Shown here piece by piece: positions 2,897 to 63,011 of a DNA stretch of 64,000 nucleotides (its first letter is position 1; every line of letters starts with the position of its first letter). Source of the stretch: Dactylococcopsis salina PCC 8305 (GTDB taxonomy: Bacteria; Cyanobacteriota; Cyanobacteriia; Cyanobacteriales; Rubidibacteraceae). Made by a program: the position numbers and the translations under genes. The notes beneath the pieces are model-generated. The model worked only from the letters and a program-made list of their open reading frames with translations. It was not told where the DNA came from and did no database searches. The DNA lies in assembly GCF_000317615.1 (NCBI RefSeq), contig NC_019780.1, positions 3,307,840-3,371,839 of the forward strand, written 5' to 3'.

Positions 2897-2982
2897 TTGC
2901 GCCTGATTGAATTTCTAAACACAGCCTAGCAATTTAGCTCAGTAATTTACTGTCTCAGACTCAGCCACACATTAAAATTCAT

Positions 2983-4372
2983 TTGTCAAGAGGGAGCGCG
3001 ATCGAGTTTTCCCACCCGTTACAAAAATTGATGTCAACTCTTTGCTTCGATCGAACGTTTCTTTACGCTCTCTTTAACGCAACTTCGGGAAGACAGACCT
3101 GTATTGTTCAATTTTAAACAGAATTCTCCAACTTCTCACTTGACTTTATCAAAAAAAATGTTGATGTTCAAGTCCACGTCTTCTAATTTCCGAAAATTCG
3201 TTTCCCTTTACTGAACTCAATATAAGTAACTCTGATTAAGTTTCCGTTTCTGTTTATTGTTCCTAATCTATCCAGAGACGGGAAAAGAGGAAGCGATCGA
3301 GTTTTCTGTTCTTACTTCCTTCTGAATCAATTTCTGGGTTTGAGTTTCAGATGGATTCTGTTTTTGTCAAGAGGGAGCGCGATCGAGTTTTCCCACCCGT
3401 TACAAAAATTGATGTCAACTCTTTGCTTCGATCGAACGTTTCTTTACGCTCTCTTTAACGCAACTTCGGGAAGACAGCCCTGTCTTGTTCAATTTTAAAC
3501 AGACTACCCCAACTTCTCACTTGACTTTATCAAAAAAAATGTTGATGTTCAAGTCCACGTCTTCTGATTTCCCAAAATTCGTTTCCCTTTACTGAACTCA
3601 ATATAAGTAACTCTGATTAAGTTTCCGTTTCTGTTTATTGTTCCTAATCTATCCAGAGACGGGAAAAGAGGAAGCGATCGAGTTTTCTGTTCTTACTTCC
3701 TTCTGAATCAATTTCTGGGTTTGAGTTTCAGATGGATTCTGTTTTTGTCAAGAGGGAGCGCGATCGAGTTTTCCCACCCGTTACAAAAATTGATGTCAAC
3801 TCTTTGCTTCGATCGAACGTTTCTTTACGCTCTCTTTAACGCAACTTCGGGAAGACAGCCCTGTCTTGTTCAATTTTAAACAGACTACCCCAACTTCTCA
3901 CTTGACTTTATCAAAAAAAATGTTGATGTTCAAGTCCACGTCTTCTGATTTCCCAAAATTCGTTTCCCTTTACTGAACTCAATATAAGTAACTCTGATTA
4001 AGTTTCCGTTTCTGTTTATTGTTCCTAATCTATCCAGAGACGGGAAAAGAGGAAGCGATCGAGTTTTCTGTTCTTACTTCCTTCTGAATCAATTTCTGGG
4101 TTTGAGTTTCAGATGGATTCTGTTTTTGTCAAGAGGGAGCGCGATCGAGTTTTCCCACCCGTTACAAAAATTGATGTCAACTCTTTGCTTCGATCGAACG
4201 TTTCTTTACGCTCTCTTTAAGGCAACTTCGGGAAGACAGCCCTGTCTTGTTCAATTTTAAACAGACTACCCCAACTTCTCACTTGACTTTATCAAAAAAA
4301 ATGTTGATGTTCAAGTCCACGTCTTCTAATTTCCGAAAATTCGTTTCCCTTTACCAAACTCAATATAAGTAA
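2983..4372. repeat. 381-bp direct tandem repeat array (about 3.65 copies)
   Basis: The motif TTGTCAAGAGGGAGCGCG starts at 2983, 3364, 3745 and 4126, an exact period of 381 bp. The last copy breaks off near 4372 after CTCAATATAAGTAA. No long open frame runs through the unit on either strand, so it is non-coding. Each unit has an ACTTGA...TCAAGT interrupted hairpin around an A8 run and several CGATCGAG motifs. Copies 2 and 3 are nearly identical; copies 1 and 4 share variants (TAATTTCCG rather than TGATTTCCC), as expected from unequal crossing-over. On the minus strand each unit has TTGAAC-17-TAAAGT, a weak promoter-like pair. Confidence 0.95.
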
Positions 4373-4506
4373 GAGTGATGAGACTTGAGGATTAAATTAA
4401 AAAAACTGATAAGAATAGCAAAGGTAAAGGAAAGAAAAATATCCAAAATTTAGGATTAGCGATAAGCTATTATGAAAGTAACAAAATATTGCGAAACCTC
4501 ATACTT

Positions 4507-7347: not shown

Positions 7348-8481
7348 ATGAAACATAAGAATCAGACGACAGCCACGTCTTTACAAGAAGAAATTGATAA
7401 AACAAGGCAAGAGATTCGGACAGATGGCTATTCGATGTCAATTGGTGAATGGATTAGTCTTTATGAACATAATGAAATTGATATTCATCCAGATTTTCAG
7501 CGTTTTTTTCGTTGGTCTGATCATCAAAAATCAGCTTTCATTGAGTCGATACTTTTAGGAATCCCCATTCCGCCTATTTTTGTGAATCAACGAGAGGATG
7601 GAGTTTGGGATGTCGTTGATGGGTTACAGAGACTATCAACGATCTATCAGTTTGTAGGGATTTTAAACCCGAATCATCAAGAAGAAAATACCCCCTTTAC
7701 ATTACAAGAAACAGTATATTTACCTTCTCTCAATGGCAAAAAGTGGAATGATCCAGATGATCAGGAAAATTCTTTCACTCAAGCGCAACGTCTTTATATC
7801 AAGCGATCGAAAATCCCCGTCAATATTATTCAAAAAGAAAGCGATCCGATGATTAAGTACGAGTTATTTCAACGCTTGAATACAGGAGGTTCGATCGCAA
7901 CTCCCCAAGAAATGCGAAACTGTATTCTTTTGATGTTGAATCAAAACTTATATGATCTTATGAGTTCACTTTCGCGTCGGGAATCGTTTAGAAATTGTAT
8001 TGCTTTGAGCGATAAACTCTATGAAGAACAGTATGATCTGGAGTTAGTCTTACGTTTTATTCTTCTCTTTGACAAGGATAATGATAGCCTACAAAAGTTA
8101 GGGGGTGATGTTAGTGTTTTCTTGACCCAAAAAATGCGTCAAATGGCGGTTGAGAATAATTGGAATCGTCACCATATTGAAAGTGCATTTGACACTACAT
8201 TCAATCTTCTTAATCAGTCAATGCGTGATGAAAGTTTCAAAAGATATAAATCTGAGGAGGATAGGTTTCTTGGTGGTTTTTTATTATCAGCTTATGAAGT
8301 AATCGCACTCGGAATTGGATATAACTATAGAACTCTTCCTCCAGTAGATGAAATACCGAATCGGGTGAAGAGTATTTGGTCTAATCAGATTTATAAACAG
8401 TGGTCTGGGGCTGGACAAAATTCTACAAGGCGCTTACGTTATCTTATTCCTCTTGGTCGAGAAAAGTTTTCCCCTTCATGA
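7348..8481 (+). CDS. DUF262 (ParB/GmrS-like nuclease-fold) protein
   Basis: A 377-residue protein with the DUF262 signature near the N-terminus: DIHPDFQRFFRW, then IESILLGIPIPPIFV, then WDVVDGLQRLSTIYQF. In GmrSD-type restriction enzymes and related proteins this ParB-like fold carries NTPase/nuclease activity, and DUF262 genes are common in anti-phage islands. The C-terminal half is helical and not assigned. Its TGA overlaps the ATG of the HEPN-like gene (ATGA), so they form a coupled two-gene unit. The base composition is AT-richer than thrC upstream, consistent with accessory DNA. The substrate is unknown. Confidence 0.85.
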   Translation: MKHKNQTTATSLQEEIDKTRQEIRTDGYSMSIGEWISLYEHNEIDIHPDFQRFFRWSDHQKSAFIESILLGIPIPPIFVNQREDGVWDVVDGLQRLSTIYQFVGILNPNHQEENTPFTLQETVYLPSLNGKKWNDPDDQENSFTQAQRLYIKRSKIPVNIIQKESDPMIKYELFQRLNTGGSIATPQEMRNCILLMLNQNLYDLMSSLSRRESFRNCIALSDKLYEEQYDLELVLRFILLFDKDNDSLQKLGGDVSVFLTQKMRQMAVENNWNRHHIESAFDTTFNLLNQSMRDESFKRYKSEEDRFLGGFLLSAYEVIALGIGYNYRTLPPVDEIPNRVKSIWSNQIYKQWSGAGQNSTRRLRYLIPLGREKFSPS

Positions 8482-9340
8482 GTATCAGAACCTTGGAACA
8501 ACTGAGTGATTATTTAGCTAATGATCTGGCTTGGCGTAAAAGAGAACTTTCAGAAATTAAGGGTTTAGTAGAAGCAAAAAAAGTTTCTGATCAAAGACAT
8601 AGGACATTACTTCGTAGTGGCGTATGTATTCTTTATTCCCATTGGGAAGGTTTTGTGAAACTAGCAGCGAATGCTTATGTTGATTATGTGAGATCGCAGA
8701 GACTAACTTATCAGGAACTTGCGAGTAATTTTTTAGCTCTCGCTATGAAAAGTAAGCTCAAAGATGCACAAGAGACGAATAAGCCATCACTGTACATTCC
8801 TGTTTGTGATTTTTTTGTATCTGGATTAAATAAAAGATGTGTCCTACCTAGGGGTTGCTGAAAAAGTCCATTGGTTGGTTAAGTAAGGCAAGAGGCAAGA
8901 GGCAAGAGGCAAGAGGGTTGATTGATCGGTAGGAGGGGAAGGTTTTGATGCAATATGCGTGACCATTGAACAATCAATGAACTTGCATTTTTATCTGAAC
9001 TGAATCGCCTCAAATCCTGATTTGATAAGACTTTCAGTTTTATTCAGCAAGTCCTACCTAAAGATGCAATTTCTACCGCGTCCAATCTTTCTTCTGAAAC
9101 CTTCAAAGGAATTATTGAGATTCTTGGCATAGATTTTTCCTACTACTCCACTAAATCTAAATTGATCGATACTCAACTATTAAAGAAAAGAAATGAAATT
9201 GCACATGGCAATTATTTAGAGTTGGATCGGGAAGAATATAGGGATTTGCAAGCAGAAGTTATTGGAATGCTTGACCTTTTCCGTAACCAGATAGAAAATG
9301 CTGCTTCACAGGAAAAATACAAGCAGAATCTTCCCTAAGA
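8478..9340 (+). pseudogene. HEPN-like nuclease (MAE_28990 type), split by a MITE
   Basis: The first part (8478-8850) encodes LLRSGVCILYSHWEGFVKLA, typical of the MAE_28990/MAE_18760 HEPN family. The second part (9055-9340) carries KRNEIAHGNYLELDREEY, containing the HEPN R-x4-H active-site pattern. A 204-bp MITE plus a 6-bp duplication (TACCTA) separates them; removing 210 bp restores one frame of about 217 residues reading CVLPKDAIST. As it stands translation stops at TGA just inside the MITE, losing the catalytic motif. HEPN domains are usually RNases in toxin or defence systems, so the pair with DUF262 was probably a conflict module now disarmed. Confidence 0.85.
8851..9054 (-). mobile_element. 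MITE copy 1 (TIR GGGGTTGCTGAA, TSD TACCTA)
   Basis: A 204-bp element beginning GGGGTTGCTGAAAAAG and ending TTCAGCAAGTCC, flanked by TACCTA on both sides. Inside is a short array of the heptamer GGCAAGA (four copies) near the left end. The same element lies in the other orientation at 28932-29137 and 34026-34250, with a partial end near 25949. It encodes no protein. Confidence 0.92.
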
Positions 9341-31381: not shown

Positions 31382-31534
31382 GAAAAAACCTTTTCTAATG
31401 CTAAGGGTGAAAATGAACTTAATCAGGGGTAAATGCAACTGCTCTTATTTTACATTACCGAAAGCAATCAAATGTTTCCTTAAAATTGAATTCACTTGTG
31501 ATATGAAGGCGGAACTAATCACCAGGAAAACAAG

Positions 31535-31620
31535 GGAGCAATGGGAGACAATGGGGACAAGGGAGCGATTTTTCTCCCCCATCTTCCCCATCTCCCCCAT
31601 CTTCCCCATCTTCTCTTCCC
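31535..31620. repeat. minisatellite module, second copy
   Basis: GGGAGCAATGGGAGACAATGG, the core GGGAGCGATTTTTC and CCCCCATCTT/CCCCATCTC units, matching 1305-1385 and 62645-62880. It lies exactly where the dienelactone hydrolase reading frame loses homology. Confidence 0.85.
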
Positions 31621-32561: not shown

Positions 32562-33923
32562 ATGCTAATTCGTTTTCGCGCAGCAAATTTATATTCATTT
32601 AAAGAGGAAATTGAATTTAGTATGATTCCCTCTCCTGAGAGGATTCATTCTCATCAAATCTTTCCGAAAAAGAAGAAAAACGATATCAGATTAAATCGCT
32701 TTGCTGCGGTTTATGGCGCAAATGCTGCAGGAAAATCAAACTTGGTTAAAGTCCTTAAATTTGTCCAAAAAATGGTAGTAGAAGGAGTGAAACCAGAAGC
32801 AGTAATTCCAATTCAACGTTTTCGTTTAACTCAAGATTATCTTCACTCTCCTGCTAAATTTGAAATAGAATTTAAAGTGGGAGAACATATGTATGAATAT
32901 GGATTTGAATTAGATTCTCGCTCTATTCATCGAGAATGGTTAATTAATTTTACTCGTAATTCAGAGAAAATACTTTTTAAAAGAACTACCGATCAAAATG
33001 GTAAAGCTAAGTTAGAATTTGGTTCATTTATTAATAAATTTAGCAAAAAAGAAAAATTATTTCTTGAATTTGCTGGAGAAGGAACACGACCCAATCAACT
33101 TTTTCTTAATGAAAGCATTGATAGTAATATGATGTATTTTCGAGGAGCTTATGATTGGTTTCGTAAAGTTATTACAGTCATTGAACCGATGGAACTGTAT
33201 ATTCCAGTTGAGCTTCAAATGGACGAAGATAAAAGATTTCAAGACTTTCTGAGTCAAATTTTACGAGATTCTGATACTGGAATCGCATCCATAAAAGCTG
33301 ACAAAATGGAACTTGATGATTTAGAAGATATTTCAGAAGATGCGGCTCAATTTATAAATGATCATCTATCAGATGCTGATGGATTTTTCCTAAAGGTGCA
33401 ACAGTTTCGTCTCACTGCTATTAAGGAAGATGATAAAATCCATCTTTTCAAATTAATCCCCACTCATCGAACTTTGAATGGAAGTGAAGAAGCCATATTT
33501 GAAGTGTATGAAGAATCTGATGGAACGCAACGATTGATAGATTTAGCCCCTGTATTATATGAATTATTACTGGGAGAAAATGAGCGTGTTTTTGTTGTTG
33601 ATGAGTTCGATCGAAGTTTACATCCTCAACTCTCTAGAATGATTGTTGAACTTCATCTTGATGAAAACAAATCCACTCAACCAAGTCAACTAATTGTTAC
33701 TACTCACCAAACCAATATTCTCGACTTAAATTTATTGCGTAAAGATGAAATTTGGTTTGTTGAAAAAAATCCAGAAACAGGCGCAACTGATCTTTATTCT
33801 TTATATGATTTCCAGCCTCGTTATGATAAAGATATTAAAAAAGATTACCTATATGGTCGTTATGGAGCAATTCCTTTTCTAGGAAATATGAGTGCTTTAA
33901 AATTATCATCTAAGAAAAAATAA
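32562..33923 (+). CDS. RloA-like AAA/ABC-type ATPase
   Basis: A 453-residue ATPase of the COG1106/RloA group. FRAANLYSFKEEIEFSM at the start, Walker A YGANAAGKSNLVKVL (about residue 52), a coiled and variable middle, then Walker B VFVVDEFDRSLHPQ and the switch histidine VTTHQTNIL. Such ATPases pair with RloB-type Toprim-like nucleases in putative anti-phage systems often found near restriction-modification loci. Its partner rloB starts 36 bp downstream. AT-rich codon use differs from neighbouring metabolic genes, indicating horizontal gain. It looks intact; the ATG at 32562 fits. Confidence 0.88.
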   Translation: MLIRFRAANLYSFKEEIEFSMIPSPERIHSHQIFPKKKKNDIRLNRFAAVYGANAAGKSNLVKVLKFVQKMVVEGVKPEAVIPIQRFRLTQDYLHSPAKFEIEFKVGEHMYEYGFELDSRSIHREWLINFTRNSEKILFKRTTDQNGKAKLEFGSFINKFSKKEKLFLEFAGEGTRPNQLFLNESIDSNMMYFRGAYDWFRKVITVIEPMELYIPVELQMDEDKRFQDFLSQILRDSDTGIASIKADKMELDDLEDISEDAAQFINDHLSDADGFFLKVQQFRLTAIKEDDKIHLFKLIPTHRTLNGSEEAIFEVYEESDGTQRLIDLAPVLYELLLGENERVFVVDEFDRSLHPQLSRMIVELHLDENKSTQPSQLIVTTHQTNILDLNLLRKDEIWFVEKNPETGATDLYSLYDFQPRYDKDIKKDYLYGRYGAIPFLGNMSALKLSSKKK

Positions 33924-33959
33924 TTTGTGTTATTAGTAAATGGAATTTTAGATGGTAGA

Positions 33960-34025
33960 ATGGCAAAACAAAAACGCTCTTTTCAAAGGAAGCCTAAAAA
34001 ACGTACCATAAACAAGATTTATTTA
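33960..34025 (+). pseudogene. original 5' end of rloB, cut off by a MITE
   Basis: ATG at 33960 opens MAKQKRSFQRKPKKRTINKI followed by YL (22 residues) and then runs into the MITE, where it stops (GGG-ATT-GCT-GAA-TAA). After removing the MITE and one TATTTA copy, the frame continues directly as IYLVATEGEKTEE into the rest of rloB. The lost part is mostly lysine/arginine. Confidence 0.85.
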
Positions 34026-34250
34026 GGGATTGCTGAATAAAACTGAAAGTCTTACCAAATAAGGATTTGAGGCGATTCAGTTTAGATAAAAATGCAAGTT
34101 CATTGATTGTTCAATCGTCACGCACCTTGCATCAAAATCTTCCCCTCCTACCGATCAATCAACCCTAAGGCAACTTGCCTTTTGCCTCTTGCCTTTTGCC
34201 TCTTGCCTTTTGCCTTACTTAACCAACCAATGGACTTTTTCAGCAACCCC
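34026..34250 (+). mobile_element. MITE copy 3 (TSD TATTTA) inside rloB
   Basis: A 225-bp element beginning GGGATTGCTGAATAAAAC and ending TTTTTCAGCAACCCC, with TATTTA at 34020-34025 and 34251-34256. It includes GCCTTTT/GCCTCTT heptamers. The right end carries ATGGACTTTTTCAGCAAC, an ATG in frame with the downstream rloB. Confidence 0.93.
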
Positions 34251-34787
34251 TATTTAGTTGCAACTGAAGGCGAAAAAACAGAGGAAATCTATTTTAATAT
34301 ATTCCGAACACCAGAGTATCGAAAGAATATTCAGGTAAAAATCCTATCAGCAAGAAGAGGAAACTCCTCACCAAAGGCTGTTATGAAACGTCTTCAGAGT
34401 AAAGCAAGAGAGATGGATTTACAATCAGGAGATGAATTATGGGTTGTTATTGATGATGATAAGCGTCCTAAAGAGCAACTGCAAGTAATTGTTAATGAGT
34501 GTAAGGAAAAACATAACTATTTTTTTGCAATTAGTAATCCTTGTTTTGAACTTTGGTTACTTTTACATCAAAAGAACTATAAAGCTCCTCCTACTCCTGA
34601 ATTGTGTGAACAAGAATTAGCTAAATTATTTGAAAAACCGTATGATAAAACCAATTATGAGGTTAGCAAGCTAGAGCCTTACATTAAAAATGCGATCGCT
34701 CATGCTCAAAAATTAGATACAACAGATATTCCGAAAGAAGTGGGAACTGGGGTTTATCGGTTAGTTGAAAAACTGATTAAGAAGTGA
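34230..34787 (+). CDS. rloB: RloB family protein with MITE-derived start
   Basis: The body VATEGEKTEEIYFNIFRTPEYR, WVVIDDDKR, and NPCFELWLLLH is RloB (PF13707), a Toprim-like nuclease partner of RloA: the TEGEKTE glutamates and the DDD cluster are probable metal ligands. The native start is lost to the MITE. An in-frame ATG at 34230 inside the MITE gives MDFFSNPYLVATEGE, eight MITE- or duplication-encoded residues before conserved sequence, and 185 residues in all; longer TTG starts exist. Because only a basic tail is missing, the protein may be functional. It overlaps narM by 11 bp, tail to tail. Confidence 0.75.
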   Translation: MDFFSNPYLVATEGEKTEEIYFNIFRTPEYRKNIQVKILSARRGNSSPKAVMKRLQSKAREMDLQSGDELWVVIDDDKRPKEQLQVIVNECKEKHNYFFAISNPCFELWLLLHQKNYKAPPTPELCEQELAKLFEKPYDKTNYEVSKLEPYIKNAIAHAQKLDTTDIPKEVGTGVYRLVEKLIKK

Positions 34788-62645: not shown

Positions 62646-62880
62646 GATGAGGAAGATGGGGGAGATGGGGGAGATGGGGGAGATGGGGGAGATGGGGGAG
62701 ATGGGGAAGAAAAATCGCTCCCTTGTCTCCCATTGCTCCCTTGTCTCCCATTGCTCCCATTGCTCCCATTGCTCCCATTGCTCCCATTGCTCCCATTGCT
62801 CCCATTGCTCCCATTGCTCCCATTGCTCCCATTGCTCCCTTGTCTCCCTTGTCTCCCTTGTCTCCCTTGTCTCCCTTGCA
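62645..62880. repeat. minisatellite: GGGGGAGAT and CTCCCATTG 9-bp repeats
   Basis: Six GGGGGAGAT units, the core GAAAAATCGCTCCCTTGTC, then about a dozen CTCCCATTG units and five CTCCCTTGT units. Long open frames on both strands here (for example HCSHCSHCS or LPLLPLLP) are produced by the 9-bp periodicity and are not genes. It fills the gap between recQ and the psaL promoter region; 62881-63011 has no other feature. Confidence 0.95.
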
Positions 62881-63011
62881 TTTTACCAAAAATTAATAAA
62901 CTTTTTTAACACTTCAGCATAGAACTAAAACTTATGTCTCCGTCTCAGCGTAAAATGTAAGCGATTCAATCAATCATTAATTGCTTGTTGCAAAAACGAG
63001 AGGAGTTGCCC

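Follow-up and report, generated by a model that had tools for sequence, protein, structure and literature searches.

The rloA-rloB locus and the inserted element

We analysed a 64,000-nucleotide stretch of the Dactylococcopsis salina PCC 8305 genome (hereafter the window), in which a miniature inverted-repeat transposable element (MITE) lies within rloB, the second gene of an rloA-rloB pair. The window is part of a single-contig genome of 3,781,008 bases (G000). The native rloB ATG stands 36 nt beyond the rloA stop, and the MITE interrupts rloB after native codon 22 (Table 1).

Table 1. Features at the rloA-rloB locus and the MITE copy in the HEPN gene (window coordinates; TSD, target-site duplication; AF2, AlphaFold2; pLDDT, predicted local distance difference test).
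Feature	Position	Strand	Evidence
rloA, AbiLi-like AAA ATPase gene, intact, 453 aa	32562..33923	+	PF13304 E 1.7e-33; PADLOC AbiLi E 3e-90; dN 0.16, dS 0.96 vs G001 orthologue
Native rloB 5' end from ATG, 22 codons in all (MAKQKRSFQRKPKKRTINKIYL), severed by the insertion	33960..34025	+	16/22 residues identical to each of two orthologues
TSD, left copy, TATTTA	34020..34025	.	
MITE body, 225 bp, with imperfect inverted repeats at its termini; rloB-frame stops at 34038, 34044, 34068, 34083 and 34104	34026..34250	+	
Alternative in-frame TTG start within the element; further TTG codons at 34182 and 34203	34107..34109	+	
MITE right end, ATG GAC TTT TTC AGC AAC CCC = MDFFSNP, in the rloB frame	34230..34250	+	
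TSD, right copy, TATTTA, read Tyr-Leu	34251..34256	.	
RloB/AbiLii-like open reading frame (ORF), present reading from the MITE ATG, 185 aa	34230..34787	+	PF13707 E 1.5e-37; PADLOC AbiLii E 6.7e-23; AF2 mean pLDDT 91.8
Further MITE copy, antisense within the HEPN gene, limits approximate	8850..9062	-	

The copy in rloB has both terminal inverted repeats, which match at 14 of the 18 positions compared, and a TSD, as expected of a MITE. The native frame, MAKQKRSFQRKPKKRTINKIYLGIAE, ends at the first of five in-frame stops within the element. When the flanks were joined in silico with one TSD copy, a 198-codon frame with zero stops resulted; two same-genus orthologues that lack the element read MAKQQRPFTRKSKKRKINKVYLIATEGEK and MAKQQRAFTRKSKKRKINKVYLIATEGEK, with a basic N-terminus in both. 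A sequence-only reading of this DNA had proposed that the MITE separates the native ATG and 22 basic residues from the rest of RloB, and had suggested comparing the N-termini of relatives. TSD, frame and orthologues all agree with that separation. Nine of the 22 severed residues are Lys or Arg and, because Tyr-Leu is duplicated with the TSD, 20 residues rather than 22 are truly lost.

The right end of the element reads ATGGACTTTTTCAGCAACCCC, in frame with TAT TTA GTT GCA ACT GAA GGC. From its ATG, 21 bp from the element end, an ORF of 185 codons (MDFFSNP-YLVATEGE...) runs to a TGA at 34785-34787. The predicted MITE-coded N-terminus of RloB is MDFFSNPYLVATEGEK, which would appear as an N-terminal peptide of the form (M)DFFSNPYLVATEGEK. 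The earlier claim of an in-frame ATG at the right end was therefore correct, and the RloB domain is complete from there, PF13707 being matched over its full profile (1-195 of 195).

RloA matched both AAA_21 (PF13304) and the PADLOC AbiLi model, and an AAA ATPase gene adjoining an RloB gene is the arrangement of an AbiL or RloA-RloB pair. The PADLOC AriA model was also matched by RloA (E 1.3e-31), but AbiLi far better; the best PADLOC match of RloB was AbiLii, and the AriB model was not listed for RloB. Judged by these matches, RloA-RloB is an AbiL-type pair of an AAA ATPase and a putative TOPRIM-family effector. According to PMC10440598, RloB/AbiLii is related to TOPRIM_OLD, and the toxic effector in AbiL is AbiLii.

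Loss of the basic N-terminal tail of RloB

Use of the MITE start swaps the RloB tail for MDFFSNP. RloB relatives were present in 16 of the 60 genomes searched, the genome itself included, and two of the five other genomes of the genus hold one (64-65% identity), both without the element. The scan with alignment A1 kept 80 of 347; a single-protein scan of the genome contigs found no relative. For an analysis of leaders, 94 homologue loci were entered (L046 and L047 were left out), of which 80 were scorable and 14 were dropped for want of the motif E-G-x-T-E or of a start. Leaders were counted from the first in-frame ATG, or from another start codon if ATG was absent, so their lengths lean long.

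The leader ahead of the catalytic Glu had a median length of 28 aa and a median net charge of +6, and it was net positive in 80 of 80 homologues. A leader of 14 aa or fewer was found in one of the 80 (L240, which has TTG starts only). In alignment A2, which holds the window protein and 54 of the 80 homologues, tail column 27 contains R in 52, K in 2 and a gap in 1 of the 55 sequences. The sole gap is the MITE-started window protein; R or K stands there in 54 of 54 homologues. Free of any alignment, 50 of the 74 leaders that are long enough have R exactly 16 residues ahead of the Glu, the best of offsets 9-23 and a count that 0 of 2000 tail shuffles reached. Several homologue leaders are identical, and 75 are distinct. 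The sequence-only reading had RloB losing only a Lys/Arg tail; the word "only" is not supported by this comparison, since the homologues examined retain the tail and, within it, one particular basic residue.

The severed native sequence holds the conserved Arg as R10. The basic tail with its conserved Arg (a feature defined in the present analysis, with no curated definition) is encoded in the DNA before the element, and the MITE-started protein lacks it. This near-invariant Arg, which in most cases stands 16 residues ahead of the catalytic Glu, is itself a candidate for functional testing.

Confident AF2 models were obtained for both the MITE form and an intact orthologue (mean pLDDT 91.3 for the latter), and the least certain part of the orthologue model is its tail. 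In the MITE form strand 1 starts at residue 6, within the MITE-coded part, versus residue 19 in the orthologue. Structure comparison of the orthologue model (VIA-align) placed the OLD C-terminal region, 6njx, at rank 2 (Z 6.5, root-mean-square deviation 4.6, 146 aligned), tied with unrelated folds, and gave PARIS 8ux9 Z 4.8 (root-mean-square deviation 5.3, 139 aligned); OLD and PARIS both stood among tied, mostly unrelated rows. A Foldseek search of the PDB with the MITE-form model returned no match at E<=0.001, and a PDB sequence search returned a single, meaningless match (E 0.53).

We suggest that this is probably a damaging insertion with a fortuitous start, which would leave an impaired or inactive effector, not an improved one, beside an intact RloA. 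A high-copy MITE, expanded in this lineage, has cut rloB off, apparently recently, from both its native ATG and its basic N-terminal tail, and its right end carries an ATG 21 nt from the terminus. The RloB core can be read from that ATG because the element lies in sense orientation, the frame is kept, and the duplicated target begins with TAT rather than TAA or TAG. As the truncated native ORF stops 189 nt before it, initiation there would have to be independent. The product, if made, would be without the basic tail and the near-invariant Arg; because homologues keep both, it would most likely be impaired, the product of a knocked-down AbiL-type defence gene.

The MITE family and the age of the insertion

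With at most two mismatches allowed, the genome has 68 forward and 68 reverse matches to the 17-nt right end, compared with 0 and 0 for a control pattern. The exact right end followed by TAY was found in one of 195 genomes of the order, namely this one, at 23 places; weaker relatives of the element occur in three of the five other genomes of the genus. We examined 94 right ends with up to one mismatch, plus one more. ATG is present in 91 of the 94, the exceptions being L109, L110 and L118. The terminal CCC is followed by TAA in 50, TAG in 13, TGA in 1, TAC in 17, TAT in 10, GAA in 2 and TCA in 1; that is, the element frame stops at the first target codon in 64 right ends and continues in 30. 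Frames of at least 100 codons from the MITE ATG exist at two of the 94, rloB (185) and a PIN-domain gene (161). The fused frames in L101 and L113 (89 and 86 codons) were unmatched in Pfam at the cut-off and were not counted as genes.

A left end with an exact 6-bp TSD was found for 56 of the 94 right ends; stricter left-end searches had earlier given 31 elements and then 35, two of them plainly spurious. The 56 copies are 164-521 bp long, and are thus short, multicopy and too small for a transposase, as befits a MITE. In the search for a parent insertion sequence, PF13612 was unmatched. Among 11 PF01609 loci, both MITE ends (<=2 mismatches) occurred only in L254; five other same-score copies were without them, and we took the match as chance. 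Pairs of ends 700-2600 bp apart agreed at no more than 4 of the 6 duplication bases in the loci scanned.

An ORF of at least 100 aa spans 16 of the 56 empty sites, although some of these (e.g. L100, L077 and L082) may be chance frames. In eleven of the 16 the site falls within the last tenth, and in one (L070) at the first codon; the remaining four were hit at 0.15 (rloB), 0.20 (L092), 0.09 (L100, maybe a chance frame) and 0.62 (the HEPN gene). The in-frame ATG at rloB is not beyond chance, because the right end carries an ATG and correct orientation (1/2) and frame (1/3) suffice. Enrichment of rescue beyond chance was likewise considered and rejected. The insertions within, or at the 5' end of, nameable genes are those at rloB, HEPN (L095), L092 and PIN; two of the four are in frame, which at 1/6 each gives p ~0.13 in a test made by hand, on a sample biased by the PIN gene having been found through its ATG.

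Over a 100-nt core (27 cores were found) and a 38-nt right end, the rloB copy does not differ from copy L085; the TSD of the rloB copy is perfect and the severed native codons are undecayed. Over the whole alignable length L085 is 95% identical, with a differing left end, and the next-best copy is 96% identical over 187 nt. From these comparisons the insertion looks recent, and an intact ORF and undecayed native codons would therefore be expected with or without function. An intact ORF as proof of selection was rejected, since the rloB copy and L085 are identical over those 100 and 38 nt. A second strain with the rloB insertion was not found among the genomes searched.

Compared with the orthologues in G001 (same genus; 4,179,170 bases), rloA encodes 73% identical residues, and the rloB core 65% (dN 0.21, dS 1.47, the latter near saturation). 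The rloB figures therefore indicate long-term constraint on the core and are silent on the period since insertion. Between two intact orthologues, rloB (dN 0.049, dS 0.108) evolves faster than rloA (dN 0.011, dS 0.173), which makes the rloB rate here hard to interpret.

These data bear on the exaptation that the sequence-only reading had proposed, in which a working RloB would be made from the MITE ATG as MDFFSNPYLVATEGE... and its new N-terminus would alter activity or regulation. The 185-codon open frame, the conserved acidic residues and the full Pfam match are what such a protein should have; in a confident model strand 1 is predicted to begin within the stretch coded by the MITE, and a second nuclease-type gene, that with the PIN domain, starts likewise. 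Homologues, however, keep the tail and Arg that this protein has lost, the insertion appears too recent for intactness to carry much weight, and a second strain with the insertion was not found among the genomes searched. We consider this outcome unlikely; exaptation of rloB is possible but unsupported. The suggestion of altered DNA contact was a guess: the related Toprim toxin AriB is reported to cleave tRNA (PMC12409363).

Several points weigh against a damaging insertion. Rescue by the MITE ATG might suffice for function, and conservation of the tail does not prove that the enzyme needs it. The MITE-started form, confidently modelled at mean pLDDT 91.8, retains E13 and D75, kept in all 55 aligned RloB sequences, and D77, kept in at least 90%; we take these three to be the TOPRIM acids. 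Long-term constraint on the rloB core is ordinary. The nearest copies of the element are only about 95-96% identical over their whole length, which leaves the age uncertain. Lastly, as 11 of the 16 spanned ORFs carry the element in their last tenth, an insertion that has lasted in the interior of a gene could have lasted because the gene still works.

Translation, transcription and RNA folding

Shine-Dalgarno pairing, scored against the 16S tail, was absent at the MITE ATG (+1.3 kcal/mol), weak at the native rloB start (-3.5) and absent at intact rloA (+1.9). Of the 31 window ORFs of at least 200 aa, 9 pair at -4 or better and 3 score no better than +1.3. Because intact rloA also lacks the pairing, its absence does not rule out initiation, although the MITE start is still at the weak end.

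A gene killed outright is a different outcome, in which poor initiation, a hairpin in the element RNA or a terminator cutting the transcript would abolish RloB. Beyond the missing Shine-Dalgarno match, the element RNA folded alone is predicted to close on its terminal repeats, so that codons 4 to 7 of the new ORF are buried (-53.8 kcal/mol, z -4.06), and within a 621-nt transcript both U and G of the MITE ATG are predicted to be paired (unpaired 0.2 and 0.0; native 0.5 and 0.2). The best structure of that longer transcript, however, no longer contains the terminal-repeat pairing, and the start region as a whole is about as accessible as that of the native gene (mean unpaired 0.54 vs 0.48). The element contains one terminator-like site versus 0.4 expected, which is weak, and the ORF is intact. 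We regard complete loss of RloB as conceivable but doubtful. A promoter scan of 33860-34330 gave two overlapping promoter-like sites at 33896-33924, in the end of rloA, versus 1.5 expected, and zero in the element.

Translation could also begin at one of the three in-frame TTG codons, adding a MITE-coded extension of at most 48 residues before Tyr-Leu (MFNRHAPCIKIFPSYRSINPKATCLLPLAFCLLPFALLNQPMDFFSNP...). The frame is open from 34107, where the program-made ORF list also starts it. TTG starts are usually weaker than ATG, though, there is no Shine-Dalgarno match at 34107 (-0.1), and the hydrophobic stretch so added is unlike every leader in the homologue set. A TTG start seems to us very improbable.

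Other genes met by the MITE family

The antisense copy in the window splits a HEPN gene (8478-9338) that lies downstream of a GmrSD_N gene (7348-8481). Both pieces, 8478-8861 and 9162-9338, match HEPN_MAE_28990, and the seven best HEPN homologues elsewhere have open frames of 220-232 codons. In this orientation the MITE offers zero rescue and the gene is plainly broken; a sibling copy that breaks a gene in the same window counts for the damaging reading of the rloB insertion.

The PIN gene (L104/L161; G000:C1:312817-313299, minus strand) reads MDFFSKPYLIYADICCLNRPLDD and starts in a MITE end, MDFFSKP-YLIYADICC. The only start giving the full PIN domain is the MITE right end, MDFFSKPYLIYADICCLNRP: an in-frame TAA stands five codons before the MITE ATG, and the next in-frame Met is residue 36, beyond the conserved YADICCLNRP. 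Homologues read, for example, MGKKYKIYLDVCCLNRPFDD (L167), MGKQYKIYLDACCLNRPFDD (L172) and MEQQYRIYMDVCCLNRPFDD (L168). PF01850 was matched over residues 64-132 at 25.5 bits (cut-off 23.6). MITE identity covers ~35 nt of the right end, with one mismatch within the 17-nt motif. The left end was not found at this gene, and the insertion may therefore be older or rearranged. Because only the first few residues are replaced and the conserved part is kept, the PIN gene is, on its predicted protein, a better candidate for start donation or exaptation than rloB. An overlapping 65-aa ORF lies downstream, and a divergent ORF, which we take to resemble groES, lies upstream.

A bolder proposal would make the family a portable start-codon module, whose right end ACCAACCA-ATG-GACTTTTTCAGCAANCCC-TAY gives working N-termini MDFFS(N/K)P to at least RloB and the PIN nuclease; in RloB, exchange of the basic tail for a short acidic one would have retuned the TOPRIM effector, not killed it. 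We think this quite unlikely.

Other MITE ends also adjoin open frames. In L135 (positions 1530-1736) a MITE end is followed by a 68-aa frame that weakly matches a chlorophyll a/b-binding model and that we presume to be HLIP-like. The MITE ATG shares this frame and lies 12 codons before another ATG, which is preceded by AGGAG. Long frames begin at MITE boundaries in L139, where the ATG overlaps the last target-site base, and in L070, where it lies one base past the target site. The window also contains a 381-bp unit in four tandem copies (2982-4424; 87-98% identical to the first over 300 nt) and 9-bp tandem repeat arrays at 62696-62893 and 31519-31614 (ATTGCTCCC and CCCCATCTT types). A longer MITE copy in L135 is filled with motifs similar to these 9-bp arrays.

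Significance and comparison with known systems

The most useful by-products of this analysis are the conserved Arg of the RloB/AbiLii tail, whose role is easily testable, and the PIN gene. One MITE family in one genome has met a gene that is possibly rescued (rloB), one that is cleanly re-started (PIN) and one that is plainly broken (HEPN), a natural experiment on start-codon donation. If exaptation were true, a phage-defence effector would owe its N-terminus to transposon DNA. No published report of this MITE family or of the rloB insertion was found in the literature searched, most subscription papers lying outside its scope.

A MITE end that supplies a start codon is the same kind of event as one already published for MITEAba12 of Acinetobacter, insertions of which are reported to give neighbouring genes a start that reads MQQS and also to interrupt host genes (PMC6382973). 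The same paper describes MITEAba12 as 113 bp long, with an 8-9 bp TSD and an outward promoter that has RNA-seq support. The present MITE is set apart by description: it is 225 bp long, has a 6-bp TSD, encodes MDFFS(N/K)P and lies in a defence effector and a PIN gene. As in AbiL (AbiLi-AbiLii), RloA-RloB and the NetFlax D29-D44 pairs (PMC10440598), an AAA ATPase gene stands beside an RloB-family gene; unlike in those pairs, the effector here has been stripped of its native start and basic tail by a MITE. The two-gene design of AAA plus Toprim is shared with PARIS AriA-AriB (PMC12409363), but RloA fits AbiLi far better than AriA and RloB fits AbiLii best.
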